In this document: positions 18,803 to 34,121 of the stretch, in pieces
How the letters are laid out: each line of letters begins with the position of its first letter
Position numbering within the stretch: position 1 is the stretch's first letter
Origin: Oscillospiraceae bacterium
Lineage (GTDB): Bacteria; Bacillota; Clostridia; Oscillospirales; Acutalibacteraceae
Assembly: GCA_022508845.1 (NCBI GenBank)
Contig: JAFLUL010000012.1
Location: forward strand, 1 to 38,964
DNA: 38,964 bases
Direction of reading: 5' to 3'
Made by a program: the position numbers and the translations under genes
Notes under the pieces: model-generated
Told to the model about the DNA's origin: nothing
Database searches by the model: none
Seen by the model: the letters and a program-made list of their open reading frames with translations, nothing else

Positions 18803-20283
18803 TACTTTTTTTACTCGGACATACATATAAATATGAATGTGAAAAGGTGTGCCGCATATTTTTTCCAACAGAGAAAATTATTTTTGCGGACGGCCTTTCT
18901 TCTTCTCTTCCCGAGGACGGTAAAAGGGTTATAACCGAAATATCAAAAAGGGGCAGCTTTACCGATTATATATGCAAGGCGGAAATAAACGGGAAATTTT
19001 CCTGCCATACAGTTACCGAAAAATCGGATAAAAAGGGTGTTATCGAGGAAAATTCCCTTGCGGCGGCAATGATAAAATCTCTCTCGGAAATAACCGGCGC
19101 AGTTCCTCCCTGGGGCATACTAACCGGCGTTCGTCCTTCAAAGCTTATGAGAAAGCTGATAGCTTCAGGCGGTGAAAAAGAGGCAAAGGAGATTTTTTCA
19201 TCTGAGCTTATGGTGAGCGATAAAAAAACTCAGCTTGCCTTTGATGTTGCTATGGCGGAAAACGAGGCTATAGCTCTTTCAAAACCCGATTCGTTTTCGC
19301 TTTATATTGCAATACCCTTCTGCCCAACCCGATGCTCATATTGCTCATTTGTTTCTCATTCCGTTGCGCAGGCAAAAAAGCTGATACCCGAATATGTTAA
19401 GCTGTTGTGCGAGGAGATAAAGCAGACCTCAGCATATGCAAAAAGCCTTTCATTAAAGCTTGAAACCGTGTATTTCGGCGGAGGAACGCCAACCTCCCTC
19501 TCGGCGGATGACATAAAAAAGCTTCTTAACGCGGTAAACGAGAGCTTTGATGCTGCGAATTGCCGTGAGTTTACGGTTGAAGCCGGCAGACCCGACACCA
19601 TTGACGAAGAAAAGCTTCGGGTTTTGAAAAACGCGGGCGTTGGCAGAATAAGCATAAACCCGCAAACCTTTTCCGATGAGGTTCTCTTAAATATCGGACG
19701 GCGGCATAAAAGCTGCGAAACCGAGGAAAAGTTCCTTCTCGCCAGAAGCCTCGGATTTAATAATATAAATATGGATTTCATCGCCGGACTTACCGGCGAC
19801 ACTCTTCAGGGCTTTAAGAACAGCATCGAAAGAGCCTTAGTCCTCTCTCCCGAAAATATAACGGTCCACACCCTCGCCCTTAAAAGGGCTTCAAGAATGT
19901 CTGCCGAAAACGAACAAACCGAAAGCGCTCTTTTAACCGCCGATATGGTGGAGTATTCAAATTCCGCTCTGAGCAAAAGCGGCTATATGCCGTATTATAT
20001 GTACCGCCAGAGCAAATCTCTCGGAAATCTTGAAAATGTTGGATGGACTCTCCCCGGGAGAGATTGCCTGTATAACATCTATATGATGGAGGAAACCCAC
20101 ACCGTTTTATCCTGCGGCGCGGGAGCCGTAACAAAGCTCAAAGAGCCAAACGGCGAAAATATTGAAAGAATTTATAATTTTAAGTATCCTTATGAGTATA
20201 TCTCACGCTTTAGTGAGCTTACAGACAGAAAAAAATATATTGAAGAATTTTATCTGAAAGGAAAAACGGATGGCAAACGCTAA
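18799..20283 (+). CDS. hemZ: HemZ-family radical SAM protein (coproporphyrinogen dehydrogenase-like)
   Basis: This 494-residue radical SAM enzyme has a cluster motif CPTRCSYC (Cys175, Cys179, Cys182), followed by YFGGGTPT and the HemN-like VEAGRPD region. An N-terminal domain of about 165 residues, with WGILTGVRPSK, is typical of HemZ and absent from HemN. HemZ is annotated as oxygen-independent coproporphyrinogen III oxidase, but its physiological reaction is poorly settled and other tetrapyrrole or heme-related roles are possible. No other heme gene is in the window. It overlaps the MBL gene by 4 bases and the flippase gene by 14 bases. Confidence 0.88.
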   Translation: MILFLLGHTYKYECEKVCRIFFPTEKIIFADGLSSSLPEDGKRVITEISKRGSFTDYICKAEINGKFSCHTVTEKSDKKGVIEENSLAAAMIKSLSEITGAVPPWGILTGVRPSKLMRKLIASGGEKEAKEIFSSELMVSDKKTQLAFDVAMAENEAIALSKPDSFSLYIAIPFCPTRCSYCSFVSHSVAQAKKLIPEYVKLLCEEIKQTSAYAKSLSLKLETVYFGGGTPTSLSADDIKKLLNAVNESFDAANCREFTVEAGRPDTIDEEKLRVLKNAGVGRISINPQTFSDEVLLNIGRRHKSCETEEKFLLARSLGFNNINMDFIAGLTGDTLQGFKNSIERALVLSPENITVHTLALKRASRMSAENEQTESALLTADMVEYSNSALSKSGYMPYYMYRQSKSLGNLENVGWTLPGRDCLYNIYMMEETHTVLSCGAGAVTKLKEPNGENIERIYNFKYPYEYISRFSELTDRKKYIEEFYLKGKTDGKR

Positions 20284-22048
20284 AAAACAGTCGCTTCTTA
20301 ACGGCGCGCTGATTCTCTCCGCGGCAATAGTGCTGGTAAAAATACTCAGCGTTTTGTTTAAGCTCTATGTTGCCAATAAAATAGGTTACGGCGGCACCGG
20401 GCTTTACGCAACTGCGTATAATATCTATACGCCCATTTATTCCATAGCCCTCGCGGGGCTTCCAACCGCCGTTTCAAAAATGGTTGCCTCGGAGCTTGCG
20501 CAGGGGCATTATAAGGACGTTAAGAGGCTGTTCGGAGTTTCAAATATGCTCTTTGCCTTTATGGGGCTTATAGGAACGGCTTTAATGTTGCTGCTGGCGT
20601 ATCCTTTTGCTTATTCGGTTGGGTCTCTGGATGCTATGCCGTCCATTATAGCTATCGCTCCGTCAATCTTCTTTTGCTGCGTTATGTCGGGCTACAGGGG
20701 CTATTATCAGGGGCACAGCAATATGAATCCGTCTGCCGTGTCGCAGATTTTTGAGGCGGCAGGCAAGCTCATCTTCGGCTGGCTTTTCCTCAATATTGTT
20801 GCGGGCAGCACGCTCTCATTTGCAGATAATATTCCCTTTATGAAGAACATCGTAACCGACGTCTCCTCAGCCTATGCCTCAGCCGCCGCAATAGCGGGCG
20901 TTTCGGTGGGCTCGCTGATGGGAGTAATATATCTCATAATAAGAAGCAGGGTGGTTCGGGATAATGTAACAAGATCTCTGCTGAATTCCTCTCCCGAGGC
21001 AAAAAGCCGAAAGGCTCTTGCCCGCCGCCTTATAAGCATTGCCATTCCTATTGCTCTTTCATCGCTCGTTTTTAACGTAACAACGCTCATTGACAACTGG
21101 ACGATTCAGAACCGCCTTAAGGCTGTGCTCGAAAGCGGCTATGATACCGTTGCAAATATGTATCCGGGGATAGTTTCCGCAAGAGGGTTCACCCGCGAAA
21201 CAGCGATCGACTTTAAGACATATCTCTTCGGCGCGTATGATATGGTGCTCGAAATTAAAAACGTTGTTCCAACGTTTACAATAACTCTGGGGCTCAGCGC
21301 GATCCCGATTTTATCTGAAAACTGGACAAAGAAAAATATTCCCGCCGTGAGAAGATCTATTGAAACTGTTATAAGGCTTTGTATGCTAATTGCCTTCCCC
21401 GCGGGAATAGGAATGATCGCGCTTTCCGATGATCTTTTATATCTCCTTTTCGGCTCGTCCGCCGTGAACGCCCCCGCCATCCCGTATATCGCTCCGATAC
21501 TTATGTTCTATGGCTTCTCCGTTTTCTTTCTCGCCTTAACTCAGCCGCTTACCGCCGCTTTGCAGGCAATAGACCGTATGGACGTTCCGATAAAGGCTAT
21601 GGCGATAGGCGCAACGGTGAAAATAGTTGCGAATTTCGTTTTGGTTAGCATACCGAGCGTAAATATTCAGGGCGCGGTGTTCGGCTCAATACTGTGCAAT
21701 GTCGTTATGGTTGTTTATGCGCTCTATATCCTCTCAAAAGAAACTAAGCTGAAATATAATTATAATTCTCTGTTTGTAAAGCCGTTTTTGTGCGCCGTTA
21801 TTTCGGGAGCTGCGGCGTGGCTTGTTAATTCCATCTTTGAAAAAGCTCTTCCCGCAAACGGACTTACCTTTATTTCTTCACGGCTGTCGGCGGATAATAT
21901 TGCCTGCCTTGCAGGGGTGTTTGCTGCGGTAATTTTCTATGTTATAGCTCTGTTTGCGCTGCGCGCGATAACAAAAGAAGAGATTTCTATGCTTCCAAAA
22001 GGCAAAAAAATTGCAAAAGCACTTGAAAAATACGGATTTATAGGTTAA
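20270..22048 (+). CDS. MVF/SpoVB-type polysaccharide or lipid II flippase
   Basis: This 592-residue membrane protein of the MATE/MOP superfamily (polysaccharide export branch) has about 14 hydrophobic segments. Family features are LNGALILSAAIVLVKILSVLF at the start (quoted here as segment 8-28), YATAYNIYTPIYSIALAGLPTA (roughly 42-63) and SGYRGYYQGH in the second bundle helix. Firmicute homologues include SpoVB (spore cortex) and YtgP/MurJ-like lipid II flippases, and I cannot decide between these by eye. GAAAGG lies 8 bases before the ATG. It overlaps hemZ by 14 bases, and mazG follows after 43 bases. Confidence 0.85.
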   Translation: MANAKKQSLLNGALILSAAIVLVKILSVLFKLYVANKIGYGGTGLYATAYNIYTPIYSIALAGLPTAVSKMVASELAQGHYKDVKRLFGVSNMLFAFMGLIGTALMLLLAYPFAYSVGSLDAMPSIIAIAPSIFFCCVMSGYRGYYQGHSNMNPSAVSQIFEAAGKLIFGWLFLNIVAGSTLSFADNIPFMKNIVTDVSSAYASAAAIAGVSVGSLMGVIYLIIRSRVVRDNVTRSLLNSSPEAKSRKALARRLISIAIPIALSSLVFNVTTLIDNWTIQNRLKAVLESGYDTVANMYPGIVSARGFTRETAIDFKTYLFGAYDMVLEIKNVVPTFTITLGLSAIPILSENWTKKNIPAVRRSIETVIRLCMLIAFPAGIGMIALSDDLLYLLFGSSAVNAPAIPYIAPILMFYGFSVFFLALTQPLTAALQAIDRMDVPIKAMAIGATVKIVANFVLVSIPSVNIQGAVFGSILCNVVMVVYALYILSKETKLKYNYNSLFVKPFLCAVISGAAAWLVNSIFEKALPANGLTFISSRLSADNIACLAGVFAAVIFYVIALFALRAITKEEISMLPKGKKIAKALEKYGFIG

Positions 22049-22091
22049 AATGTCTGTTGTCTGTATAAACAAACGGATGTGAGATAAGATT

Positions 22092-22907
22092 ATGATAGAT
22101 AACTTTGAGTTCAAAAACCGCTATACCTGCTCTGACCTTGTTAATATTGTTACCATTCTTCGGGCTCCGGGCGGCTGCCCGTGGGATAGGGAGCAGACCC
22201 ACGAAAGCATCCGTAAAAACTTTATCGAAGAGACATATGAGGCAATTGAGGGCATAGATAAGGCCGACCCCGATATCCTCAGAGAAGAGCTGGGCGACGT
22301 TCTTCTTCAAATTATGCTCCACACCGAAATGGAGAGAGAAAAGGGCGTATTCGATTTTGACGATGTTTGCAACGATATCTGCCAAAAGCTCATTATCCGC
22401 CATCCCCATGTTTTCGGCGAGGTGAACGTTTCGTCCACCGACGAGGTTCTTTCAAACTGGGATGCAATTAAAAAGGCAACCAAAAAGCAAAAGACCTCCT
22501 CTGAGAGCATACTCAGCATTCCCCGCGAGCTTCCCGCTCTTATGCGCGCTCAAAAAACTCAGAGCAAGGCGGCAAAGGCGGGCTTTGACTGGAGCGAAAT
22601 CTCCGGCGCGATAGATAAGATTTATGAGGAGACTGAGGAGGTCAAAGAGGCGTTAAAGGAAAACGACCCCGCCAAAATAGCCGATGAGCTTGGCGATTTG
22701 CTCTTTGCCGCGGTAAACGTTTGCCGCTTTGCCGATACCGACGCCGAGGAGGCGCTCACTTTTGCAACCGATAAATTTATAAATCGCTTTGCTTTGGTTG
22801 AAAAGCTGGCAACTGAAAACGGAAAAAATATGAAGGACTATACCCTCAGCGAGCTTGATGTTTTCTGGGAGCAGGCAAAGAGGATGCTAAATCCTCTTGC
22901 CGATTAA
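22092..22907 (+). CDS. mazG: Nucleoside triphosphate pyrophosphohydrolase MazG
   Basis: This 271-residue protein has two MazG-type helical domains. The first carries LRAPGGCPWDREQTHES, then EETYEAIEGID and EELGDVLLQ, the Mg-binding Glu/Asp set. The second has ELGDLLFAAVN. It hydrolyses NTPs to NMP and PPi, probably cleaning the nucleotide pool. In E. coli MazG also limits ppGpp effects, which fits its sharing an operon with rel here. The length is like E. coli MazG. It is the last gene of the operon, followed at once by repeat copy C. The ribosome binding site is weak (GATGTGAGA). Confidence 0.92.
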   Translation: MIDNFEFKNRYTCSDLVNIVTILRAPGGCPWDREQTHESIRKNFIEETYEAIEGIDKADPDILREELGDVLLQIMLHTEMEREKGVFDFDDVCNDICQKLIIRHPHVFGEVNVSSTDEVLSNWDAIKKATKKQKTSSESILSIPRELPALMRAQKTQSKAAKAGFDWSEISGAIDKIYEETEEVKEALKENDPAKIADELGDLLFAAVNVCRFADTDAEEALTFATDKFINRFALVEKLATENGKNMKDYTLSELDVFWEQAKRMLNPLAD

Positions 22908-22922
22908 AAAAAAGATATGATC

Positions 22923-23037
22923 AGAAATTCGCAATGCGTAATTCGGAAGCGCTGAACCTGCGGTTTGCATTAAAAAAATGTGTTCAAAAATCGCCTGTGT
23001 TTTGTGAAATTCCGAAATCCGAATTTGATTAAAGCAC
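22923..23037. repeat. Dispersed intergenic repeat, copy C
   Basis: The left end is AATTCGCAATGCGTAATTCG and the inner part CTGCGGTTTGCATTA. Then come AAAATCGCCTGTGTT and a right end GAAATTCCGAAATCCGAATT. The inner blocks match copy A and the right end matches copies A and D. It lies between mazG and the HU gene. Confidence 0.6.
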
Positions 23038-23083
23038 TTAAGCCGTTTTTCGGCTTTTGAATATTAAAAAGGAGGAAGTATTT

Positions 23084-23359
23084 ATGACTAAAACAGAACT
23101 TGTTGCAGCAGCAGCAAATAAGAGCGGACTTACCCTTAAGGATACAGATAAAGCTCTGAATGCCATCGTGGAGGCCGTAACAGAGGCTCTCGCAGACGGC
23201 GCAAAGGTACAGCTTACCGGCTTTGGCACCTTCGAGGTTCGCGAAAGAGCTGCCAGAGAAGCCCGCAACCCGCAGAAGCCCGGCGAGACCATCTCGGTTC
23301 CCGCATCAAAGGTTCCCGCTTTCAAAGCAGGCGCTTCCCTTAAAAAGGCTGTTAAATAA
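23084..23359 (+). CDS. hup: HU-family nucleoid protein
   Basis: This 91-residue histone-like DNA-binding protein has the family core GFGTFEVRERAAREARNPQ, then PGETISVPASKVPAFKAG, which forms the DNA-binding arms. The N-terminus TKTELVAAAANKSGL fits HU, and the length is exactly typical. I chose the ATG at 23084 because AAGGAGG sits 8 bases upstream; an ATG 27 bases earlier has no site. It compacts and bends DNA as a homodimer. The gene is single, with a terminator right after it. GC-richer, 'gct/aag'-type codon choice fits high expression. Confidence 0.95.
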   Translation: MTKTELVAAAANKSGLTLKDTDKALNAIVEAVTEALADGAKVQLTGFGTFEVRERAAREARNPQKPGETISVPASKVPAFKAGASLKKAVK

Positions 23360-23377
23360 GATTTATTCCAACGCATT

Positions 23378-23410
23378 AAAAAGTCCGATACTCTCGGGCT
23401 TTTTTTCTTT
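23378..23410 (+). terminator. Intrinsic terminator of the HU gene
   Basis: An 11-bp stem (23378-23388 with 23394-23404, one G-U pair) has a 5-base loop, TACTC. Its right arm runs into a T-rich tract. Confidence 0.75.
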
Positions 23411-23414
23411 AATA

Positions 23415-23443
23415 TTGACATATAATTTTTTTCGTGATAGCAT
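23415..23443 (+). promoter_or_regulatory. Promoter of the transglutaminase/dockerin gene
   Basis: A perfect -35 TTGACA (23415-23420) is 17 bases from a -10 TAGCAT (23438-23443). The start codon is 45 bases downstream of the -10. Confidence 0.6.
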
Positions 23444-23488
23444 AATTTATATTATTTAATATAGTTTAGGATAAAGGAACTGAATTAA

Positions 23489-25519
23489 ATGACTGACAAA
23501 CGATCTTTTTTTAAAACGTTTTCCGTTCTGATGGCGGCAATAATGATGATTTCCGTTTTTGCGCCTGCCGCATCAGCAGCTGAAATATCTTCCAAGGAAT
23601 ATTATGTTGTTGATGAGCCCCGTTATTATGATAATGCGGTTTCGTATAAAACCTCCGCCGGTATTGCAGATAAAATTGATTTAAAAAAGCTCAGAGCTGA
23701 GGTTTTTGAGTTTTTTTATAATTGTCCTGTTGAAAAAAATAAAAACGGCACTTCAAATCCCGATGCATATTTGGATATTTCTGAATATAAAATCCCGCTG
23801 AATGAACGTTCGGTTATCAGTTCTTTAATCTGGCACGAATGGACAGAGCTTTTCCATATCGGCCCAATATTATTTTCATATAATACCGATGATAATTTAC
23901 TAACCGGTATCGCTGTTACAGAATATAACTATCAGGCGGAAGAATATCACCGTATGCTGAAGGTTTGTGAAAGAGAAGCGGATAGACTCCTCTCAGGCAT
24001 TAAAGGCAATTATAACCTTACGGACCTTGAAAAGGTTCTCCTTATCCACGACAGACTGGCAGCAAACACCGAGTATGATTATGATGACTTCCTTGCGGGA
24101 ACGCTCGAAAAATCGGTATACAATATTTACGGCGTTCTCGGAAACAGAACGGCCGTATGTGCGGGTTACGCGCTTGCAAATATATACCTTCTTGAAAAAG
24201 TGGGTGTGAAAGCTGCATATTGTTCCTCTGATGCGATGAATCACGCCTGGAACATCGTATATATTGACGGTATTCCTTATCATGTTGATGTTACCCACGA
24301 TGATCCCACCTGGGATGTTTCCGGCCGGGTAAAACATAATAATTTCCTCCTCTCAAGCGCCGCTTTATACAACAATACCAGCCACAAGGCCAACGACTAC
24401 AACACCGAGCCAACGAGCACCTTTTATGATAATTATTTTTGGCAGGACTCCGATACGGAGTTCCGGCTTGTTGACGGTAAAATTTACTATATCAATAATT
24501 CAGACGCAACAATCTACAGAATCGACGGCAATATAAAAACGCCTGTTTTAAGCGTCAAAGATAAGTGGAAAGTTTCAGAAACACTCCATTACACCGGAAA
24601 CTACTCAAAGCTCAGTTCTTACGGTAATTATTTGCTCTATTCTCTTTCAAACGCCGTATACAGATATGATGTAAACACCGGAGAATCCACTGTTTTCTGG
24701 ACTCCCGAAAAACCCGGCAATTATTATAACATCTACGGCTTTACCTATGACGGAACATATCTTATCTGTGAAGTAGCTCCTTCTCCGAACTTTGATGAAA
24801 ACACCAAAGCCGTTTATCAGCAGAAGGCGCTTTTCGATCTGACATCTCCCTCGGTTTCAATAACGGTATCAAACGATGTTGCAGCCAGCCAAACGCTTAC
24901 CTTCGATTTGTATGATGAGGGTGTGCTCAGCGGATACTACTGGGGAACAAGCCGCTACTATAATGCAAATAATTTTACCGCCATAACCGGCTCGCTTACG
25001 CAGTTTCTGACAACTGAAAAAGTTTCGCAGGAGGGCACATACTATCTTACCGCAGCCGACAAAAGCGGTAACCTTTCCTATACATATATGATTACTTTTG
25101 TAAAAACAACGCTTTATGCTGCTCCGGGTTCTGTGTCGCCTTCATATGTTATAACTGCAGTCGGAAATTCATTCCCGCTGCCCAAAGCTGAGAGAACTTA
25201 TTATGAAAATCTCGGATGGTCGGTTGATCAAACGAAAACCGTTTCATATAATGCGGGAGAGTTCTATCGGCCCGAGACCTCCGCAACGCTCTATGCGGTA
25301 TGGAGCAAATACAAACTCGGAGATGTTGACAACAACGGAGAAATCACGGCCGCCGATGCAAGACTTGCCCTAAGACGTGCGGTAAATCTTGAAAAATTTG
25401 CTGCGGGTTCTGAAAAGTTCCTTGCCTGCGATGTTGATAAAAATAATGAAGTAACCGCATCGGACGCGAGAATTATCCTCCGAATCGCAGTAGGACTTGA
25501 AAGAATAACGGATTATTGA
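23489..25519 (+). CDS. Secreted transglutaminase-like protein with type I dockerin
   Basis: This 676-residue exported protein has a signal peptide (residues 1-31, ASAA cleavage site). A transglutaminase/protease-like core follows, with triad Cys224 (AVCAGYA), His252 (MNHAWN) and Asp267 (HVDVTHDDP). Next is a beta-rich middle (about 320-600) with a WSVDQTKTVSYNAGE region resembling bacterial repeat/Ig-like folds. The C-terminus (about 609-673) is a type I dockerin with two calcium loops, DVDNNGEITAADA and DVDKNNEVTASDA. The dockerin should bind a cohesin on a scaffoldin or other surface protein, so this is probably a cell-surface or extracellular complex component. Whether the core is a peptidase or a crosslinking enzyme is not known. 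Its own promoter and terminator flank it. Confidence 0.85.
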   Translation: MTDKRSFFKTFSVLMAAIMMISVFAPAASAAEISSKEYYVVDEPRYYDNAVSYKTSAGIADKIDLKKLRAEVFEFFYNCPVEKNKNGTSNPDAYLDISEYKIPLNERSVISSLIWHEWTELFHIGPILFSYNTDDNLLTGIAVTEYNYQAEEYHRMLKVCEREADRLLSGIKGNYNLTDLEKVLLIHDRLAANTEYDYDDFLAGTLEKSVYNIYGVLGNRTAVCAGYALANIYLLEKVGVKAAYCSSDAMNHAWNIVYIDGIPYHVDVTHDDPTWDVSGRVKHNNFLLSSAALYNNTSHKANDYNTEPTSTFYDNYFWQDSDTEFRLVDGKIYYINNSDATIYRIDGNIKTPVLSVKDKWKVSETLHYTGNYSKLSSYGNYLLYSLSNAVYRYDVNTGESTVFWTPEKPGNYYNIYGFTYDGTYLICEVAPSPNFDENTKAVYQQKALFDLTSPSVSITVSNDVAASQTLTFDLYDEGVLSGYYWGTSRYYNANNFTAITGSLTQFLTTEKVSQEGTYYLTAADKSGNLSYTYMITFVKTTLYAAPGSVSPSYVITAVGNSFPLPKAERTYYENLGWSVDQTKTVSYNAGEFYRPETSATLYAVWSKYKLGDVDNNGEITAADARLALRRAVNLEKFAAGSEKFLACDVDKNNEVTASDARIILRIAVGLERITDY

Positions 25520-25521
25520 TA

Positions 25522-25568
25522 AAAAACTGATAGCCGGGGCGGAGCTTTGTGACGCTTGCAGTTTTTTT
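25522..25568 (+). terminator. Terminator of the transglutaminase/dockerin gene
   Basis: AAAAACTG (25522-25529) pairs with CAGTTTTT (25559-25566) across a GC-containing interior, with further T residues after the right arm. Confidence 0.55.
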
Positions 25569-25593
25569 GATTATTATCAAATTGTTTTGATAG

Positions 25594-26048
25594 AAGAGTG
25601 TTTGCAAAAAGACAAAAACCGAGAGTATAACGAAGTTTGAAGAAACCGTTATTGATACTTCCAACGTAAAAGAAAAAGACGGTTCTGTTTATGCGGTTCC
25701 CAACCTCACCGCCGCTGATGTAATCAAGGCAGCGGGAAACGGCGCAAAGATAATTAAAATCGACGGAAAGGAGCTTGGCGCTAAAGAAAAGGTCGGTTCG
25801 GGTATGACGCTTCAAAAGCCTGATGGCACGAAAGAGACAATAATCGTTAAGGGTGATAACACCGGTGACGGCGCGATAACCGCCTCAGACGCGCGCTTTG
25901 CCCTGAGAACTGCCGTTAACCTTGAAAAGCCGAACGGTTGGGAGAAAATGCAAGTCTTGTTGACAGTTCAAAAACCAACATAACCGCCTCAGACGCGCGC
26001 CTTATTCTTCGCGCCGCAGTTAATCTCGAAACATTAAATCTTTATTAA
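25594..26048 (+). pseudogene. Truncated, frameshifted dockerin protein remnant
   Basis: A frame open from 25594 reads through a segment (YAVPNLTAADVIKAAG, then GSGMTLQKPDG) typical of the domain that precedes dockerins in Ruminococcaceae proteins. It continues into a first dockerin loop, GDNTGDGAITASDARFALR. About 25 codons later it hits a stop. The second dockerin half, VDSSKTNITASDARLILR, continues in another frame to a TAA at 26046-26048. There is no start codon with a ribosome binding site, no signal peptide and no upstream body, so this is a decayed 3' end. Its dockerin resembles that of the neighbouring intact gene, which suggests duplication followed by deletion. Confidence 0.8.
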
Positions 26049-26061
26049 ATAACATAATTTC

Positions 26062-26107
26062 AGGACGTTTGCTGAAACCAAAAAGGCCGGCAAGCGTCCT
26101 TTTTTTT
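26062..26107 (+). terminator. Terminator after the dockerin remnant
   Basis: AGGACGTTTGC (26062-26072) pairs with GCAAGCGTCCT (26090-26100, one G-U pair), followed by seven T. The intact terminator of a decayed gene supports the idea of recent loss. Confidence 0.75.
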
Positions 26108-26222
26108 GCAGGAAGCTGAAAACAGCAGCGGTAGGGCGGTGCTTCGCTCTGCGGTAATTTTTTTTCTTTATGTTTAATGGCAGAATTTTTCCAAGCAAAA
26201 AATTTTTATGATCCCCCATCCC

Positions 26223-26282
26223 CCATCCCGTGAACGAAGTGAGCAATATTCGCCATCCCGCGACCGAAGGGAGCTATTATCC
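26223..26282. repeat. Two tandem 30-base direct repeats
   Basis: Unit 1 (26223-26252) and unit 2 (26253-26282) share CCATCCCG, CGAAG and GAGC blocks at equal spacing and differ at a handful of positions. The unit resembles the CGAAGTGAGC-type repeats scattered in many bacterial genomes. Confidence 0.55.
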
Positions 26283-26292
26283 GAATTTGTGA

Positions 26293-26320
26293 TTGCATTT
26301 TTCAAAAATAGTGGTAAAAT
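26293..26320 (+). promoter_or_regulatory. Promoter of the mcsAB fusion gene
   Basis: TTGCAT (26293-26298) and TAAAAT (26315-26320) are 16 bases apart, 30 bases before the ATG. AAAGGGAAG lies just before the start. Confidence 0.5.
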
Positions 26321-26350
26321 AAATGTATCAACAAAAAGGGAAGTTTAGCT

Positions 26351-27745
26351 ATGCTTTGTCAGAACTGTCACAATAAAGACGCGGACGTGCATTTGAGAAG
26401 GATAATAAACGGCGAATCCGCCGAGATGCACCTGTGCGCCGATTGCGCCAGAGCCCTCGGCTACGGAGCCGTTTTTTCGGGTTTTTCGTTTCCTACGGCA
26501 AAAACCTTGGGCGATATTTTCTCCGGCTCAGAGCTTACAAGCATAGGAAACAGAGTTCTCAGATGCGAAATCTGTTCTTTGAGCTTTGACGATATAGTTC
26601 GCTCCTCCCGTCCGGGCTGTCCTAATTGTTACCGTGTTTTTGCCGATAAGCTTATGCCGTATATCCGCGAGATCCACGGAAGAAGTATGTATAAGCCGGG
26701 CGAAGAGACCGCTGTGTTTGATGCAGGAGCGGGCGAAGAGAAGTGGTACAGAGAAAAAAAGAACCACAGCGATATAGTTATCGGCTCAACCGCGGTTATA
26801 ACCGCCGGTGTTGACGGTGTTCCGTTTCCCGCAAGGCTCACTCCATCTCAAAAAAGCTCTCTCGCCGTAAATATTCTTTCGTTGCTTAAAAATGTTGGCG
26901 ATGAGCTGAGCGTTTGCGATCCCGGAAGGTTATACCCCTATGAGATGGTGTCCTTTGCCGAGCGCGCGCTCATAACCCCCGAATTTGCCTCTGCAAGGGA
27001 GGGAGCGGTTATGGCCTTTTCAAAGGACGAGAGGGTTTGCGTTATGCTCTGCGATGAAGACCATATTAAGATCCGCACCTGCGTTGGAGGACTTTCTCCC
27101 GAAGGAGCATTCAGCAAGGCAAAAAAATACCGTGACGCAGTAAACGCCGGAATTCCGCTTGCGTTTTCGCCAAGGCTCGGCTATCTCAATCAAAGCCCCT
27201 CCCGCCTCGGAACCGCGCTGAGAGCCTCCGTTATAATGCATCTCCCCGTCCTCTCAAAAACAGGAGAGATACCCGCTTTGTCGTCTATGATATCAAAGCT
27301 GGGACTTTCGGTAACAGGCGTTGACGGCAGCTCTCTTAATGCCAGCGCGGATATGTTTCGCATTTCAAACACCTTAACTATGGGCATAAGCGCGTCGCAG
27401 GTTCTGGCAAACCTCAAGGCTTTCTGCCTTCAGCTTGAAACGAAGGAGCGTGCCGCCGCCGAGGAATATGTTAAGGATATATCCGTTCGCGACCGCATAA
27501 ACAGAGCGGCGTCCCTGCTGTCCGGTGCGGTGCTGCTCACTTCCTCCGAAATGAACGAAATGCTCTCCTGGATAAGGCTCGGTTCGGTTTACGGACTTTG
27601 TCCGTTTGATATAAGCGATATAAACGAGCTTTTTTTCACTCTCCAGAGCGCGAGCGTAAACACCATTGCCGGGGCAAAGCTCAATAGAAGCGAACGGGAT
27701 GAATTAAGGGCGCGCCTTGTTCGCAAAAAATTATTTTCCGAATAA
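26351..27745 (+). CDS. McsA-McsB fusion: zinc fingers joined to a degenerate protein-arginine kinase domain
   Basis: In this 464-residue protein residues 1-115 match McsA. The first zinc finger has Cys3, Cys6, Cys29 and Cys32 (LCQNCHN, HLCADCA) and the second Cys72, Cys75, Cys90 and Cys93 (GCPNCYRVF); MPYIREIHG follows. The usual McsA UVR tail is absent, and residues 130-464 match McsB (protein-arginine kinase) throughout, for example DEDHIKIR, GTALRASVIMHLP and RISNTLTMG. In McsB the motif SSRIRLARN binds ATP phosphates; here residues 145-153 read GSTAVITAG, with all three Arg gone. The Arg after DEDHI is Lys240, the TSCPTN cysteine is Ser282, and a later RG motif reads TG. Glu236 and the C-terminal RDxxRA motif (449-454) are kept. 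I infer a pseudokinase adaptor for ClpC; clpC is next. Confidence 0.85.
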   Translation: MLCQNCHNKDADVHLRRIINGESAEMHLCADCARALGYGAVFSGFSFPTAKTLGDIFSGSELTSIGNRVLRCEICSLSFDDIVRSSRPGCPNCYRVFADKLMPYIREIHGRSMYKPGEETAVFDAGAGEEKWYREKKNHSDIVIGSTAVITAGVDGVPFPARLTPSQKSSLAVNILSLLKNVGDELSVCDPGRLYPYEMVSFAERALITPEFASAREGAVMAFSKDERVCVMLCDEDHIKIRTCVGGLSPEGAFSKAKKYRDAVNAGIPLAFSPRLGYLNQSPSRLGTALRASVIMHLPVLSKTGEIPALSSMISKLGLSVTGVDGSSLNASADMFRISNTLTMGISASQVLANLKAFCLQLETKERAAAEEYVKDISVRDRINRAASLLSGAVLLTSSEMNEMLSWIRLGSVYGLCPFDISDINELFFTLQSASVNTIAGAKLNRSERDELRARLVRKKLFSE

Positions 27746-27769
27746 AAATAAGCAAAATTTCGTATACTG

Positions 27770-27797
27770 AAAGCAGTGAGTTTCACTGCTTTTTTTC
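27770..27797 (+). terminator. Terminator or attenuator between mcsAB and clpC
   Basis: A 10-bp perfect stem (27770-27779 with 27783-27792), a 3-base loop and a T run lie 18 bases before the clpC start. Transcription from mcsAB to clpC should be partly cut here. A TATACT hexamer at 27763-27768 could be a -10 for clpC, though no good -35 was found. Confidence 0.7.
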
Positions 27798-27814
27798 ATT
27801 TACGGAGGATAAAA

Positions 27815-30226
27815 ATGTATCAGTTTACGGGATTTACCGAAAAGGCGAACGCCGTTTTGAACGAGGCGTTTTTTATTGCCGAAAGCTACGGCCATACTTA
27901 CGTCGGAACCGAGCATCTTCTGGCAGCTCTCTGCGCCGATGCGGGCAGCGTGTCGGGAGCGGCTCTTAAAAACAGGGGCATAACTCCCGCCGCAGTCAAT
28001 GCAAAAATTGCCCTTGCAGTCGGATCCGGCATACCCACTTCTCTCACCGAGGAGGATGTTACTCCGAGACTCAAAAAAACCGTGAGCTCTGCTCTCACTC
28101 TCTCTTCAAAAGATGAGCTCGGCGCGGGAACAGGGCATCTTCTGAGCGCGCTGCTCTCGGATAAGCGCTCAGCCGCAGCTCGCATAATAACCGAGCTCGG
28201 CGTTTCTCCCGCGCTGCTCATTGCCGATCTGCATTCGGGCTTTAAGAGCGTTGATACAATTATCAGGGAGCCTTCAAAAAAGAAGGAGTTTCCAACCCTC
28301 GAAAAATACGCCGCCGACCTCACTTCTTTTGTCAGAAACGGCAGGGCGGATCCGGTTGTGTGCCGCGATAAGGAAATAGGCAGAGTTATAAGAATTCTCT
28401 GCCGCCGATCAAAAAACAATCCCTGCCTCATAGGCGAGCCGGGGGTTGGCAAAACTGCAATCGCAGAGGGGCTTGCCGCAAGGATAGTTTCGGGAGATGT
28501 GCCCGATATGCTGAGGGATAAATCGGTTTATTCCCTTGAGCTTAATTCTATGGTTGCCGGTGCAAAATATCGGGGCGATTTCGAAGAGCGCATAAAAAAC
28601 GTTATAAACGAGGTAACTTCATCCGGCAAGGTGATTTTGTTTATCGACGAGCTGCACAATATAATCGGCGCAGGCTCGGCGGAGGGAGCCGTTGACGCCG
28701 CAAATATCTTAAAGCCCGCCCTCGCAAGAGGGGAAATTCGCATCATAGGCGCAACAACGCTCGATGAATACCGCAAAACGATTGAAAAGGATGCAGCTCT
28801 TGAACGCCGCTTTCAAACCGTTACTGTTGAGGAGCCTTCCGAGGAAAGAACAATTGAAATACTGCGCTCGCTGAAGGCAAAGTATGAGGAATTCCATGGC
28901 TGCGTTATTGAGGACGATGCAATAAAATCGAGCGTTGAGCTTTCTTCGCGCTATCTCTGCGGCCGTTTTTTGCCCGATAAGGCAATTGATCTTCTCGATG
29001 AGGCGGCTGCAAAGAAAAATTTATTAAACAGCGAAAAGCCCGGCAGTCTGAAGCTCCTTGAAAGGCAGCTTCGTGAGGCTCAGGAAAAAAAGCTCGGCGC
29101 GGTGAACTCGCAGGACTATGTTCTTGCCGCTAAAACAAGGGAAAAGGAGCTGAGTATTGCCTGTGAGCTTGCGGCGGCGGACGAAAAATGGGATAACGAA
29201 AAAAATTCTGCCGAAAAAAGAGTAACCGCTCAGGATATTGCCTCGGTTCTCAGCGAACAAACGGGTATCCCCACCGAAAGTTTGCAGCAGGGCGAAAGGG
29301 AGAGGCTTATTGACCTTGAAAGCCGCCTCGAAGAATATGTTATAGGTCAAAAAAAGGCAATAAGTGCGGTTTCATACGCCATAAGGCGAGCAAGAACCGG
29401 TCTTTCCGATCCGAAAAGACCTATGGGCGTTTTCTTTTTCTGCGGCCCCACTGGCGTTGGAAAAACCGAGCTTGCAAAGGCTCTGGCTCAATGCGTTTTT
29501 CAGGATGAAAAGGCGCTTATAAGGGTCGATATGTCCGAATACAGTGAAAGCCACTCCGTTTCCCGGCTCTTCGGTTCGCCTCCGGGATATGTTGGCTATG
29601 ATGAGGGCGGCTATCTCACCGAGCAAATTCGCCGCAGACCGTATAGCGTTCTTCTCTTTGATGAAACCGAAAAGGCCCATCCGGACGTTTTCAATTCTAT
29701 TCTTCAAATTCTTGAGGAGGGTATGTTCACCTCCTCATCGGGCAAAACTGTGAACTGCCGTAACTGCATTGTTATTATGACCTCAAACGCCGGCGACAGG
29801 TTTGTTTCGGATGCTCTTCCGCTGCTCGGATTTAATTCGGATGATAAGGGTTCGTCCGACGCCGCCGGAAACGCCGTTAAAAATGAGCTTAAAAAAATAT
29901 TCCGTCCGGAATTCTTAAACAGAATAGACGAAATAGTGGTATTTAATAAGCTGTCGCAGGATGACCTTATGCTCATAACGAAAAAAATGCTCTCGCTGCT
30001 TTGCAGCAGAGCAAAAAAAACCGGAATTGAGCTTGAATATACCGATGCCCTTGTCAGACATATAGTTTCGAGCTGTTCTTCCGGCGTTTACGGGGCAAGA
30101 CCTCTTCGCCGCTTCATAACTTCCCATATCGAAAACCCTCTCGCGGAGCTTTTGCTCTCAGCCGAACCGGTAACAAAAGTAAAGGCGGATATTGAAGATG
30201 GGAAGATAAGCTTGATTAATGCTTAA
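27815..30226 (+). CDS. clpC: ATP-dependent Clp protease ATP-binding subunit ClpC
   Basis: This 803-residue AAA+ unfoldase feeds proteins to ClpP. Two Clp N repeats (about 1-145) come first, then D1 with Walker [10 protein letters not shown] and Walker [11 protein letters not shown] short coiled M-domain follows (about 405-460), then D2 with GPTGVGKTE and [11 protein letters not shown]. The ClpP-binding loop is LGF (671-673). Length and order are those of ClpC. In B. subtilis ClpC two N-domain glutamates, in GTEH motifs, hold phosphoarginine. Here the first is kept (Glu33 in GTEH) but the second is Gly107 (GTGH). The ATG at 27815 is chosen for ACGGAGG 7 bases upstream. The upstream gene is the McsA-McsB fusion. 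Confidence 0.93.
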
Positions 30227-30230
30227 TGAG

Positions 30231-30323
30231 TGCGGAGAGTGGAGTTAATTATAAGTTTTTGATTGATTACTCATCAATACTACTATTTAACTCCGCTCTT
30301 TAAACTAAAAACAACTCCACTCT
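30231..30323. terminator. Inverted-repeat region between convergent clpC and activase genes
   Basis: AGAGTGGAGTT (30235-30245) can pair with AACTCCGCTCT (30288-30298, one G-U) or perfectly with AACTCCACTCT (30313-30323). The third copy touches the stop codon of the activase gene. It is probably a terminator serving both strands, but U-tracts are short. Confidence 0.4.
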
Positions 30324-31267
30324 CAACAATTTCCGCACCTGCTCCCAATGCTCCCTATTTTGTTCCCGTCAAGATAGATAGCCGTAAGCGCGCAGCGGTT
30401 TTCGCAGCCGGAGCAAATTTCGCTTTGGCTGTTCCAGTCACCGGAGGTTTTCCCTTTTCCTTTAAATAGAGATTCCTTTCCCGTTTTTTCGCGGTTTTCC
30501 TTTGCGAGTATTGCCGCGCCCCACGCCCCCATTACATTATAATAAGGGGGAATAATAATATCCGTTTCAAGCTCCCTCTTAAACGCTCTGACAATTCCGG
30601 AATTTGCCGCAACGCCGCCCTGAAAAATAACGGGCGGCTCTATATTTTTGCCCGAGCAGAGGTTGTTTATAAAATTTCTCACAAGCGAATCGCACAGCCC
30701 CGCTAAAATATCCTCCGTTTTTGCTCCCTCTTGCTGCTTGTGTATCATATCGCTCTCGGCAAAAACCGCGCAGCGGCCTGCTATGCTGCAAGGGGAGGTG
30801 CTCTTTTTGGCCTCTTCACCTATGTTTTGAACCTCCATTCCGAGGCGACCCGCCTGTCTGTCAAGAAATGAGCCTGTTCCCGCCGCGCAAACTGTGTTCA
30901 TATTAAAATCGGTTATTATGCCGTCCTCAATAAAAATAATTTTTGAGTCCTGTCCGCCTATTTCCAAAACGGTGCGAACGTCCGGCATAGCCTCAACCGC
31001 CGCAACGCCGTGGGCGGTTATTTCGTTTTTAACAACGTCTGCTCCCGTTACCGCCGCGGCTATGCCTCTTCCGCTGCCGGTAGTCCCCGCGCCGAGAATT
31101 TCAATATCCCTTTCGCCTGAAAATATCGTGTTTATTCCGCTTGTAACCGAATTTACCGGATCGCCGTTCGTTCGGATATAGAGCTTTTTATATATGCTTT
31201 TGTTCGGGTGCATAAGAACGATGTCAGTGCTTATTGAGCCAACGTCTATTCCGATATACATTTCCAT
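30323..31267 (-). CDS. Acyl-CoA dehydratase activator, HgdC/BcrAD-BadFG ATPase family
   Basis: This 314-residue protein has the ASKHA ATPase fold: GIDVGSISTD (6-15), EIGGQDSK and the GG(V)AANSG region. In HgdC, Cys127 and Cys166 hold a [4Fe-4S] cluster at the dimer interface. Here Cys127 (NTVCAAGTGS) and Cys166 (GRCAVFAESD) match exactly. The activator uses ATP to inject one electron into a 2-hydroxyacyl-CoA dehydratase. An added tail (285-314) carries CSGCENRC and CGNC, five cysteines that could bind a further cluster or zinc. That tail resembles the linker of the large activase/dehydratase fusion proteins. The upstream dehydratase stop is one base from its start. The substrate is unknown. 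Confidence 0.85.
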   Translation of the reverse strand: MEMYIGIDVGSISTDIVLMHPNKSIYKKLYIRTNGDPVNSVTSGINTIFSGERDIEILGAGTTGSGRGIAAAVTGADVVKNEITAHGVAAVEAMPDVRTVLEIGGQDSKIIFIEDGIITDFNMNTVCAAGTGSFLDRQAGRLGMEVQNIGEEAKKSTSPCSIAGRCAVFAESDMIHKQQEGAKTEDILAGLCDSLVRNFINNLCSGKNIEPPVIFQGGVAANSGIVRAFKRELETDIIIPPYYNVMGAWGAAILAKENREKTGKESLFKGKGKTSGDWNSQSEICSGCENRCALTAIYLDGNKIGSIGSRCGNC

Positions 31268-31268
31268 T

Positions 31269-32333
31269 TTATGCGTTTTTCCTTCTCTCTATCATTTGCG
31301 TAAACGCTTCAAGCCTTGTAATAAAGCCCGCCTCCGCGCTCTGCTCGTCCATAACTATGCTCAGCACAGGCTTTTTATATCTCTTTGAGACCTCGGGAAG
31401 AATGTTTCTTGCAACGCTCTCGGGCATGCAGTTCAGCGGATAAAGCTCAATTATTCCGTCAAACCCCTCTTTTGCCCAGCTTGCAGCATTTTCAACGGTC
31501 TCTTTTGCAAAGCCTCCTATTTTGTGCGGCAAAAAATCCGCCGCGGCATTTTCCCGGTTACCGCCGTTAATTTTCAGCTTATCGCGAAGCCAGGTGCTTA
31601 TGCTCATACTGCACCTTGTGTATGCGCCCATACTGCCAAGCAGCTTTTGAATATTTTTATTCATAAAAGGGTCAATAATCGTGTATATATCCCCCGCAAT
31701 GCCTATTTTAAGCGGCGGCGTTCTGTCCGCCTTAACGCAGTTTATTTCGTCTATGGCATTTTTTGCCGTTTGCATCAGAGACGTCAGCGACGGCGAAGCC
31801 TGCATTTTTTTATTTATTTCTTCCTCAAACGCTTCAAGCTCCTTTATTTTATAATTGTTTATAAGCTCGGCGCGTTTGTCGCAGAGGGCCTGTTCATATT
31901 CATCCAAAATGCCCGCACATTTTATTCCCTCCGGAATAAGGAAAACCTGTTTTTTCAGAGAGGTTTTTGTTGCGCAGCGGAGCATATTTTTAACGTCTCT
32001 TATCCCCGATAAATCATATTCGGGAGCAATAACCTCCATCTTTATTCCGCTCTGCTTAAAAATAAGGCGAAATGCCTCGGCAAAATAGCCGAAGCTGCAT
32101 GGTCCCCTCCCGCCCAAAAACAGAGCCGTGTCCGCTCCGTTTTCATAGCTCTCCAAAAAATTTCCCAAAACGACCTTCATGGGAAGGCAGGCGTCCGGCG
32201 GGGCGTATTTTACTCCGAGCTTAACCGTTTTTTCGGTTGTTGGAAGGGGAGAGGCAAAGCTGCCGCCGACCTCTCTCATATACGCGCTCAGAAGAACCGA
32301 TAGCTTTCCGAGATTGGGAAAGGCGAGAGTCAT
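31269..32333 (-). CDS. 2-hydroxyacyl-CoA dehydratase-like subunit (HgdB-related)
   Basis: This 354-residue protein is related to the dehydratase component D family. Visible segments are YAPPDACLPMKVVLGN (around 43-58), LGGRGPCSFGY, LRCATKTS and, near the C-terminus, IIELYPLNCMPES and DEQSAEAGFITRLEAF. Cysteines in these segments are candidates for the [4Fe-4S] cluster. The last motif is shared with the next gene upstream, so the two are paralogues. AAGGAT lies about 10 bases before the ATG. It is followed one base later by the activase, so the two proteins probably form one electron-transfer system. Which 2-hydroxyacyl or other substrate it acts on cannot be told. Confidence 0.75.
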   Translation of the reverse strand: MTLAFPNLGKLSVLLSAYMREVGGSFASPLPTTEKTVKLGVKYAPPDACLPMKVVLGNFLESYENGADTALFLGGRGPCSFGYFAEAFRLIFKQSGIKMEVIAPEYDLSGIRDVKNMLRCATKTSLKKQVFLIPEGIKCAGILDEYEQALCDKRAELINNYKIKELEAFEEEINKKMQASPSLTSLMQTAKNAIDEINCVKADRTPPLKIGIAGDIYTIIDPFMNKNIQKLLGSMGAYTRCSMSISTWLRDKLKINGGNRENAAADFLPHKIGGFAKETVENAASWAKEGFDGIIELYPLNCMPESVARNILPEVSKRYKKPVLSIVMDEQSAEAGFITRLEAFTQMIERRKNA

Positions 32334-32344
32334 AGTATCACATC

Positions 32345-32493
32345 CTTAATTATAAGTCCAGATTCGTAATGTGTAATTCGGTATTATTATCTGATAGTAA
32401 AATTCAGGTTGTAATTTTAGTAAATACTGAAATTTGAAATAAAACATATTTAATCAACAATCGCTGTGTTTTTTCCGAAATTCGGAATTAAAA
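32345..32493. repeat. Dispersed intergenic repeat, copy D
   Basis: The left end is ATTCGTAATGTGTAATTCGG and the middle ATAGTAAAA (as copy B). Then come AACAATCGCTGTGTT and a right end CCGAAATTCGGAATTAAAA (as copies A and C). It lies between two genes of the minus-strand dehydratase operon. Confidence 0.6.
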
Positions 32494-32511
32494 CTGTTTG
32501 CTCCTCGTGTC

Positions 32512-33411
32512 TTACCGCATTTTCCTAAACTCCATACAGTCCCTGAAAGCTTCAAGCCTTGTGTTTAGTCCCGCTTCGGCGGTGTGTTCGTCAAGGCTGA
32601 GGGTAAGCGAGGGGATTTTTCCGTGCTGTTTTAAGTATTCCCTGCAAAAATCTGTTGAGAGCGCGTCCGTTCCGCAGCCGAATGAACTGAGGAATATAAC
32701 TCCGTCGGCGGCCTTATTGTCAGCAATATATTTTGTGAAACCGAAGCTTTTCTGCGCCGAATTCCAAAAAGGGCGTTTGAAGCCCGTGTTTTCGGCAAAC
32801 TCCGATATTCTCTTTTTTCGGAATGTATCCGGGGTGATAAATGAAACGTCCAGTTTTTTCAGCCGCTCTTCCATATCCATATTGAGCTTATTATCTCCCA
32901 GCATATAGCTGTGGCCTATGAGAGCAACCTTGAATTCTCTCTTTTGGGGCTCGGCGTTTTCGGGCTTTCGGCCTTTTTCGACGGCTCTGAGAGCTTTTTT
33001 TGTCTGAACGCTGCCAAAGCCCATTTCCCTTGCGGCGTCTGAGAGCATTTTTTTTGAGTTTCCGTTTAATCGCGGAGAAACCGTTTTCTGCATACTTCCT
33101 GCGAAGGTGTTTTTCAGCATGGAATTAAGTCCTATGCTCTTTGGGCAGGTAAAGCAATTCTTGTTTGTTTTTCTTATCTCGGGCAAAAAAATATAGTCAG
33201 GATTTCTCTCAATAAGATTTTTAACGTGCCCGAACGCAGTTTTAACCGGCAGACAAAGGTCGGAGGAAGCGCACTTTATGCCCTCTGCAAGAATCTTTTC
33301 ATCTGTTTTCGGTGACAGGACTACCTCTGTTCCAAGCCCCTCAAAAAAGCTCTTCCAAAGCTGTCCGTATTCAAAATAATACATTGAACGGGGTATTCCA
33401 ACCGTTTTCAT
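32512..33411 (-). CDS. 2-hydroxyacyl-CoA dehydratase-like protein (DUF2229-type)
   Basis: This 299-residue protein starts with MKTVGIPRSMYYFEYGQLW, the usual opening of DUF2229/acyl-CoA dehydratase-related proteins. It contains KCASSDLCLPVKTAFGH, NKNCFTCPK and FLSSFGCGTDA, and ends DEHTAEAGLNTRLEAF, nearly the same as the downstream paralogue. The conserved cysteines suggest an Fe-S cluster. I chose the ATG at 33411 on family grounds; an in-frame ATG at 33435 is possible, and neither has a strong ribosome binding site. It is the first gene of the three-gene minus operon, separated from the second by repeat copy D. In many Firmicutes these domains are fused into one long protein with the activase. 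Confidence 0.7.
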   Translation of the reverse strand: MKTVGIPRSMYYFEYGQLWKSFFEGLGTEVVLSPKTDEKILAEGIKCASSDLCLPVKTAFGHVKNLIERNPDYIFLPEIRKTNKNCFTCPKSIGLNSMLKNTFAGSMQKTVSPRLNGNSKKMLSDAAREMGFGSVQTKKALRAVEKGRKPENAEPQKREFKVALIGHSYMLGDNKLNMDMEERLKKLDVSFITPDTFRKKRISEFAENTGFKRPFWNSAQKSFGFTKYIADNKAADGVIFLSSFGCGTDALSTDFCREYLKQHGKIPSLTLSLDEHTAEAGLNTRLEAFRDCMEFRKMR

Positions 33412-33480
33412 CCGCTTATCATCTGCCTGAATCATAATATTTACAATTTTGTAATAAATAAAAAAAACTTGATATAAATC

Positions 33481-33509
33481 TTGTGTTATCAAATTTTTTG
33501 TGATATAAC
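33481..33509 (+). promoter_or_regulatory. Promoter of the small membrane protein gene
   Basis: TTGTGT (33481-33486) and TATAAC (33504-33509) are 17 bases apart, 63 bases before the ATG at 33573. The minus-strand dehydratase operon starts within 100 bases in the other direction. Confidence 0.4.
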
Positions 33510-33572
33510 TATAACATCTGCAACCTGGGAAAAATTATATGCAGACAAAAAAAGTGCTCCGGAACTGAGAAT

Positions 33573-34121
33573 ATGGCCGATAAACGAAGTTTCTTAAAAA
33601 AAGGATATCTGAGCTATTTTGTTAAAAACGCCGCCGGAGAATATATTTACACAGGCAGTCACTACAGCCTTGAAAATAATAATTACGGCGGTTTTGCAGC
33701 TCGTGTTTGCGTTTTTTGCGCCGTGGGGCTTATATCGGCAGTATTGTCCGGGATAATTCCCGCCCCCGGAATGCTCAATTGCTTTTATGTGATCATTCCG
33801 TTTATTCTCGAAATATCCCTTACTTTCAGCGTTGTTTGGGCGGCGGTCAGGTTTTTATCCAATAAAAAACCGCTTAGAGAATACATTTATGACGCAACTA
33901 TAAAGGCTCTTCCGGTCAGATCGCTTTTTGCCGCAATATTTTCTCTTGTTGGTATTATAAGCGAAACAGTCTTTATTATTCTGAACGGTTTCGGCGAAAA
34001 AACGCTCTGGTGCATTTGCCTTTATTTCTTGAAGGCTGCCTCAGCCGCTTCAATGCTTCTGATACGCCGATTTGTTCAAAAATCCGTCTGGATAAAATCA
34101 GACAAACAATCTCTAATATAA
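33573..34121 (+). CDS. Hypothetical four-pass membrane protein
   Basis: I do not recognise this 182-residue protein. A polar N-terminal part (about 38 residues, rich in Tyr and Gly) precedes four hydrophobic segments at about 41-62, 70-93, 114-137 and 143-163. The last residues are basic. No catalytic motif is visible. A weak site, GGAACTGAGA, precedes the ATG. It lies 49 bases before the ABC-importer binding-protein gene and could be cotranscribed with it, but nothing in the sequence ties it to transport. Confidence 0.6.
   Translation: MADKRSFLKKGYLSYFVKNAAGEYIYTGSHYSLENNNYGGFAARVCVFCAVGLISAVLSGIIPAPGMLNCFYVIIPFILEISLTFSVVWAAVRFLSNKKPLREYIYDATIKALPVRSLFAAIFSLVGIISETVFIILNGFGEKTLWCICLYFLKAASAASMLLIRRFVQKSVWIKSDKQSLI

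Follow-up and report, generated by a model that had tools for sequence, protein, structure and literature searches.

What is left of a McsB arginine kinase whose catalytic residues have been replaced, and what does it do beside ClpC? The question is raised by a gene in a 38,964-nucleotide stretch of Oscillospiraceae bacterium DNA (contig JAFLUL010000012.1, positions 1 to 38,964), referred to here as the window. McsB normally phosphorylates damaged proteins on arginine, and ClpC is a protein-degrading machine. In it, one open reading frame (ORF) joins the zinc fingers of McsA to a whole McsB with an eroded kinase site, and clpC lies directly downstream. We consider it fairly probable that the product is a single-chain, kinase-dead McsAB scaffold or adaptor of a ClpC that has become less dependent on phosphoarginine (pArg). 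Statements taken from the literature come from excerpts of the papers cited.

One gene encodes the McsA zinc fingers and a full-length McsB

The initial annotation of this locus, made from the letters alone, described a single ORF carrying both McsA zinc fingers with their eight Cys residues, lacking the McsA UVR tail, and running into a McsB domain that aligns over its whole length. This description held in each respect. The ORF (26351 to 27745, 464 amino acids [aa]) has no internal stop, alignment confirmed the missing tail and the eight Cys residues (positions 3, 6, 29, 32, 72, 75, 90, and 93, forming two CxxC-CxxC fingers), and NCBIfam models matched along the McsB part, though under cutoff. 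Residues 1 to 114 resemble McsA (NCBIfam model, 83 bits, cutoff 210; PDB 8wtb_B), and residues 130 to 461 resemble McsB over its full length (PDB 6fh1, 8wtb, and 6tv6). The protein fell below both curated McsB cutoffs (NF002194, 229 bits against 385; NF053707, 197 bits against 500), as expected for a divergent member; Pfam PF00217 scored 127 bits, with a cutoff of 22.4. By homology and fold (phosphagen-kinase plus dimerization domains), the fused protein belongs to the McsB family. The eight zinc Cys residues and the RDxxRA motif are invariant across six aligned fused proteins. The UVR tail is present in most unfused relatives and is also missing from three of them (G002, G010, and G025), so its loss may predate the fusion.

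The kinase site is eroded

We mapped residues by alignment to Bacillus subtilis McsB. The SSRIRLARN motif, already read as GSTAVITAG at residues 145 to 153 in the initial annotation, is indeed replaced, with R29, R31, and R34 corresponding to T147, V149, and A152. The same alignment bore out the Arg-to-Lys change noted at 240, the Cys-to-Ser change at 282, and the loss of a later Arg (R125K240, C167S282, and R207T322), and it added two replacements that had been missed, E212S327 and that of the octamer-clamp Arg R194 by A309. Kept in the fused protein are E121 (E236), R176 (R291), R337 (R449), D338 (D450), and R341 (R453); RDxxRA is present at 449 to 454 as RDELRA, as first reported. We take E121 and E212 to be catalytic residues of McsB. 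In the activity-essential set (R29, R31, R34, R125, R176, R207, R337, and C167), the window protein differs at six of eight positions, and E212 is replaced as well; R176, though kept there, is missing from four of six aligned fused proteins.

Changing R to K at position 29, 31, 34, 125, 176, 207, or 337 each abolishes the kinase signal of B. subtilis McsB, and C167S is a kinase-inactive version (PMC7235348, excerpts). The window protein naturally carries one of these changes, R125K. Structure modeling, one of the checks suggested at the outset, predicted that the fold of the McsB part is kept. Judged from these replacements in the sequence, loss of kinase function in the fused protein is well supported.

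The fused form stands at the end of a series within the genus

The genus sample comprised 26 genomes, all draft assemblies. The fusion is present in seven (G000, G007, G009, G012, G016, G023, and G024), which hold eight fused genes: seven read through to the end without a stop, and that of G009 is cut by a contig end. G016 bears two fused copies, one nearly identical to that of G007, in a bin with 5% contamination. Only the C-terminal end of the gene was found in G011, and no part of it was found in the draft genomes G019 and G021. The named genus records are metagenome-assembled genomes (MAGs), including some from goat rumen, goat omasum, and water-buffalo rumen; the fused proteins span several record series, with identity to the window protein down to 45 to 46%. 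Among the best 80 of 302 relative loci, seven had mcsA and mcsB in a single ORF, all apparently from this genus, and none of 17 dead-McsB loci outside the genus is fused.

On the McsB tree, the fused proteins form one clade (91/86), nested within a 13-row clade whose members all lack R29 (86/88). C167 is lost in all 24 genus McsB proteins read (from 23 genomes). The 11 basal members read keep R29, R31, R34, R125, and R207 and carry C167N; E121 is replaced by R, K, Q, or S in nine of them, and seven have E212D. Further along, G008 and G005 have lost R29, and G002, G010, and G025 additionally lack the McsA UVR tail while remaining unfused; the fused forms follow. Of the 23 genus proteins readable at R337, D338, and R341, 22 have all three residues; G013 has lost R337, and G009 is unreadable there. 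From the sequences, the genus is a graded series of McsB erosion with the fused form at its end.

The pairwise ratio of nonsynonymous to synonymous rates (dN/dS) in the kinase domain was 0.157 for G007-G024 (dS 0.73), 0.33 to 0.34 for G007-G016b and G024-G016b (dS 0.80 to 0.85), and 0.087 for window-G023, where dS was 1.9 and near saturation; the remaining pairs had a dS of >1 or allowed no estimate. The dimerization domain gave 0.67 in one pair, G024-G016b. By these ratios, the fused gene appears to be preserved under purifying selection.

ClpC is altered in the same clade

A clpC gene follows mcsB or the fused gene at the genus loci with a long enough contig, except in G005 and G018, and in the window it is the next gene. 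The pArg pockets of ClpC hold E32 and E106, and an E106A change partly activates Staphylococcus aureus ClpC without an adaptor (PMC12583610, excerpts). Position 106 is Gly in 12 of the 24 genus ClpC proteins with a readable N-domain (G000, G002, G005, G007, G009, G010, G011, G012, G016, G023, G024, and G025), and all 11 of these with a readable McsB have lost R29. On a ClpC tree built without that stretch, from which G019, G011, and f1_G026 were left out, E106G is one change (98/94).

The M-domain stretch of ClpC measures 15 to 26 residues, versus 75 to 76, in G002, G005, G009, G010, G011, G012, and G025, and it is 53 residues long in G008. These seven proteins are natural near-complete deletions of a repressive domain whose loss strongly raises ClpC activity and whose F436A mutant is toxic (PMC5699869, excerpts). 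The deletions do not form one clade, since the subclade of G000 keeps the M-domain, and we do not claim a single event. The window's own ClpC has kept its M-domain.

The partners of pArg signaling were not found in the genus

A profile search of the window's genome, which is 85% complete, found no second PF00217 protein; an intact second mcsB doing the job would have spoken against the initial annotation. None was found in the other fused genomes either, except in G016, both of whose copies are fused. CtsR (PF05848) was found in none of the 26 genus drafts and, by the same search, in eight of 10 other family members, the two without it also lacking a PF00217 match. LMWPTP-type phosphatases occur in 12 of the 26 genus genomes, all 12 with the motif CxGNICRS. 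A YwlE-type phosphatase (CTGNTCRS) was found in none of these 26 draft genomes, and the motif was seen in seven of the 10 other family members; its second Thr is presumably the mark of pArg specificity in YwlE. MecA, as a substitute adaptor, matched weakly in G000 (33 bits with in-frame neighbors) and in 28 of 59 genomes, mostly weakly. A CIRCE element, which would point to HrcA-type control instead of CtsR, had no match in the window at ≤3 mismatches.

Kinase-site loss recurs in the wider family

A PF00217 match was obtained in 249 of 300 sampled family genomes and was lacking in 51. We fetched 30 family genomes, picked mainly for a low PF00217 score, and most of them have kinase residues replaced, several nearly all. 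A comparison of 78 genomes, chosen by PF00217 score or kinship and not by YwlE or CtsR, combined 14 of the 26 genus genomes, 28 of those 30 (the partial G152 and G221 were excluded), and 36 others, including 30 high scorers. McsB was called dead when any of nine catalytic positions was replaced; this is a lenient definition, under which R207K alone suffices for G126. The 14 genus genomes, all dead, had neither the YwlE motif (0/14) nor CtsR (0/14); the 25 other dead genomes had YwlE once (G148) and CtsR 11 times, and the 39 intact ones had YwlE in 33 and CtsR in 38. An uncorrected Fisher test over the 64 nongenus genomes gave 5e-11 for YwlE and 1e-6 for CtsR.

The rpoB tree holds 72 of the 78 genomes (five had no rpoB match, and rpoB of G009 is a fragment), with the positions of G104 and G108 unsure. 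On it, the dead/intact state requires 11 changes, seven of which are forced by well-supported branches. In seven independent pairs, YwlE went in the same direction in 5.4 on average and in the opposite direction in 0.0 (median p, 0.06); the corresponding values for CtsR were 3.0 and 0.0 (median p, 0.25). After phylogenetic correction, the association of YwlE and CtsR with kinase loss is suggestive, not conclusive. Six intact-McsB genomes have no YwlE motif (G096, G143, G147, G153, G263, and G308); YwlE can apparently be lost while the kinase stays intact. Kinase-site loss is thus recurrent in the wider family (7 to 11 state changes), nearly always without YwlE.

In genus g7, loci L019 (G031) and L227 (G187) both have an eroded McsB, with R31, R125, R176, R207, and E212 replaced; CtsR is still present in both genomes and a YwlE motif is not, possibly an early stage.

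Proposed function and alternatives

We propose that pArg tagging would have been abandoned in this lineage and that E106G would have made ClpC less tag dependent, its resting state perhaps weakened by analogy with E106A. The fused McsAB would then be a constitutively assembled, noncatalytic partner that binds substrates, restrains ClpC, or both, and its zinc fingers may be sensitive to redox state. An adaptor role could include delivery of substrates to ClpC, and fusion would be sensible once McsA need not come and go to switch the kinase on. According to the excerpts consulted, McsB of B. subtilis binds ClpC when the cells are not stressed, and McsA acts as a thiol-based redox sensor (PMC5506225); kinase-dead McsB C167S affects MgsR turnover more mildly than deletion does (PMC7235348). 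The McsB kinase domain is bound by the second McsA zinc finger together with the loop that follows (PMC12387690, excerpts). The fusion has retained this half of McsA, which supports a preassembled partner by analogy.

The initial annotation had envisaged a kinase-dead adaptor that still reads or delivers substrates to ClpC. Loss of the kinase stands, as far as sequence can tell. The idea that the protein still reads pArg is weakened because the searches turned up no other PF00217 kinase that could make the mark; with CtsR and YwlE also not found and ClpC E106 lost, the retained RDxxRA may serve another purpose, such as McsA docking, dimerization, or binding of another ligand. A part in binding the second McsA zinc finger is suggested for this site in the available text of PMC7235348.

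Several points weigh against a ClpC adaptor freed from pArg. According to the part of the review PMC5506225 consulted, McsB adaptor activity depends on kinase activity, and the kinase-independent role in B. subtilis is, in the excerpts of PMC7235348, that paper's own inference. The other pocket Glu, E32, is kept in all 12 E106G ClpC proteins, and G008 has lost McsB R29 yet keeps ClpC E106 (1 of 12 E106 ClpC proteins). Since E106G arose once, its association with McsB decay within the genus counts as one historical event, and the hairpin between the fused gene and clpC makes their cotranscription uncertain. The absences may also be search misses: the assemblies are drafts, the fused records are MAGs, the window's genome is incomplete, as stated above, and 14 control genomes gave PF00217 in 0/14 and CtsR in 1/14. 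B. subtilis, which is among these controls, has both a PF00217 protein and CtsR. The profile search can therefore miss genes; its recovery within the family is that given above for PF00217 (249/300) and for CtsR in intact-McsB genomes (38/39).

The fused gene might instead be a decaying remnant, on its way out under selection relaxed by the loss of CtsR and YwlE. The entire genus is eroded to varying degrees, the McsB tree has long branches, 51 of the 300 family genomes have no PF00217 match, and dimerization-domain dN/dS reaches 0.67 in one pair. We nevertheless hold a remnant to be unlikely, since seven of the eight fused genes are free of stops to the end and the eighth is cut only by its contig, kinase-domain dN/dS lies at 0.08 to 0.34 in the computable pairs, the zinc Cys residues and RDxxRA do not vary, and the gene sits beside clpC. 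Slightly less likely again is a Clp-independent protein, for instance a scaffold for other partners or a zinc-based sensor of redox state or metal, with ClpC merely an inherited neighbor. The hairpin that separates the two genes would fit this, as would the unfused G005 and G018, whose ClpC match is on a different contig from mcsB. No ClpC ORF is seen beside mcsAB in the stretch read at 12 of the 17 dead-McsB loci outside the genus (L352 to L363, in G102, G150, G104, G125, G079, G166, G174, G095, G213, G319, G179, and G331; the contig of G095 stops 402 bases past mcsB), which argues against ClpC as the partner everywhere. In five of these (G102, G150, G166, G174, and G319), a protein of ~225 to 250 aa, alike by eye, comes after mcsB. 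Within the genus, however, ClpC follows mcsB or the fused gene at the other loci with enough contig, and ClpC itself is altered in the same clade.

An enzyme that is still active, through altered chemistry or very weak kinase activity, is highly improbable: the window protein retains E121 and R176 and its fold is predicted to be intact, but R125K alone killed the signal of B. subtilis McsB, six more key residues are replaced here, and R176 is gone in most of the aligned fused proteins (4/6). Least credible of all is a sequencing or assembly artifact that joined two genes. The draft MAG assembly invites the suspicion, which is ruled out by the recurrence of the same fusion in seven genomes of several record series, at the low identities given above; the initial view of the fusion as genuine was correct on this point.

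We return to the proposed kinase-dead McsAB partner of ClpC. A wider scenario, offered tentatively and with somewhat less than even confidence, is that one family of gut Clostridia has abandoned the pArg code many times over, in most cases losing YwlE and often CtsR too, while McsB persisted as a pseudokinase. The process would have gone furthest in the window's genus, where writer and activator fused and ClpC was rewired (by E106G and, in some members, M-domain deletion) to a pArg-independent, partly derepressed form, served by a dead McsAB with redox-sensitive zinc fingers as adaptor or brake.

Spacer before clpC and other features of the window

Ahead of clpC stands a conserved element (Table 1) of RTATACT followed by AAGCAG-loop-CTGCTT and a T run, pattern matched in 12 genus genomes: G000, G007, G009, G011, G012, G016, G023, and G024 and the unfused G002, G006, G010, and G020. 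Its hairpin has nine predicted pairs, three with changes on both sides, and no Rfam match was found within 20000 to 34000. The element might act on clpC as an attenuator or promoter, or it might be the terminator of mcsAB. Upstream of the fused gene, 25600 to 26045 holds a fragment carrying a pair of dockerin-like repeats, of which the second (TASDAR...LR..VNLE) is read in a different frame; the fragment resembles the end of the dockerin/transglutaminase protein at 23489 to 25519 and looks like a broken gene copy.

TABLE 1 Features of the fused gene, its spacer, and clpC in the window
Feature	Position	Strand	Remark
Fused mcsA-mcsB gene, 464 aa	26351..27745	+	ORF without internal stop; profile matches
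McsA part, residues 1-115	26351..26695	+	Two zinc fingers, eight Cys, no UVR tail
Linker, residues 116-128	26696..26734	+	Variable among fused proteins
Degenerate phosphagen-kinase-type domain, residues 129-370	26735..27460	+	Predicted fold kept
Erased nucleotide-binding motif GSTAVITAG, residues 145-153	26783..26809	+	
McsB dimerization/pArg-receptor domain, residues 371-464	27461..27742	+	
Retained RDELRA (RDxxRA) motif, residues 449-454	27695..27712	+	
GTATACT box and terminator-like hairpin ahead of clpC	27762..27797	+	Conserved
clpC	27815..30226	+	ATG at 27815 (ORF list start, GTG 27776)
Gly codon at ClpC Glu106 position (pArg1 pocket)	28133..28135	+	

Relation to known systems and significance

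Compared with the McsB proteins of B. subtilis and Geobacillus stearothermophilus (PDB 6fh1-3 and 6tv6), the window protein has R29, R31, R34, R125, C167, R207, E212, and the clamp residue R194 replaced, is fused to McsA, and scores under the NCBIfam cutoffs. With the activator McsA (PDB 8wtb, 8wtc, and 8gqd) it shares both zinc fingers and the eight Cys residues, but it lacks the UVR/coiled-coil tail and forms one chain with McsB. The laboratory mutant McsB C167S, which is kinase inactive yet partly keeps its role in MgsR turnover (PMC7235348, excerpts), is a point mutant, whereas the window protein has most of the site replaced and is joined to McsA, and CtsR and YwlE were not found. S. aureus ClpC E106A and M-domain mutants both derepress ClpC in the laboratory (PMC12583610 and PMC5699869, excerpts); the genus shares with them the loss of the pArg1 Glu and, in some relatives, of the M-domain, but its E106G is natural and clade-wide and the window's ClpC retains the M-domain. 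From the CtsR-McsA-McsB-ClpC stress operon the window keeps clpC downstream, and ctsR was not found in the genus (0/26). We found no description of a natural McsB pseudokinase or of a McsA-McsB fusion in the titles and abstract openings of the open-access papers listed by literature searches. The parts (McsA, McsB, and ClpC) are already known; as far as could be checked, neither the kinase-dead single chain nor the change in ClpC that accompanies it has been described.

In B. subtilis it is difficult to tell the kinase role of McsB from its adaptor role, and evolution seems to have separated them here. A kinase-independent McsB job thus becomes directly testable with the fused protein and its own ClpC. 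The species series suggests an order of dismantling in which eraser and repressor were lost, the active site eroded, the reader changed, and writer and activator fused. An mcsB annotation alone is an unsafe basis for inferring arginine phosphorylation.
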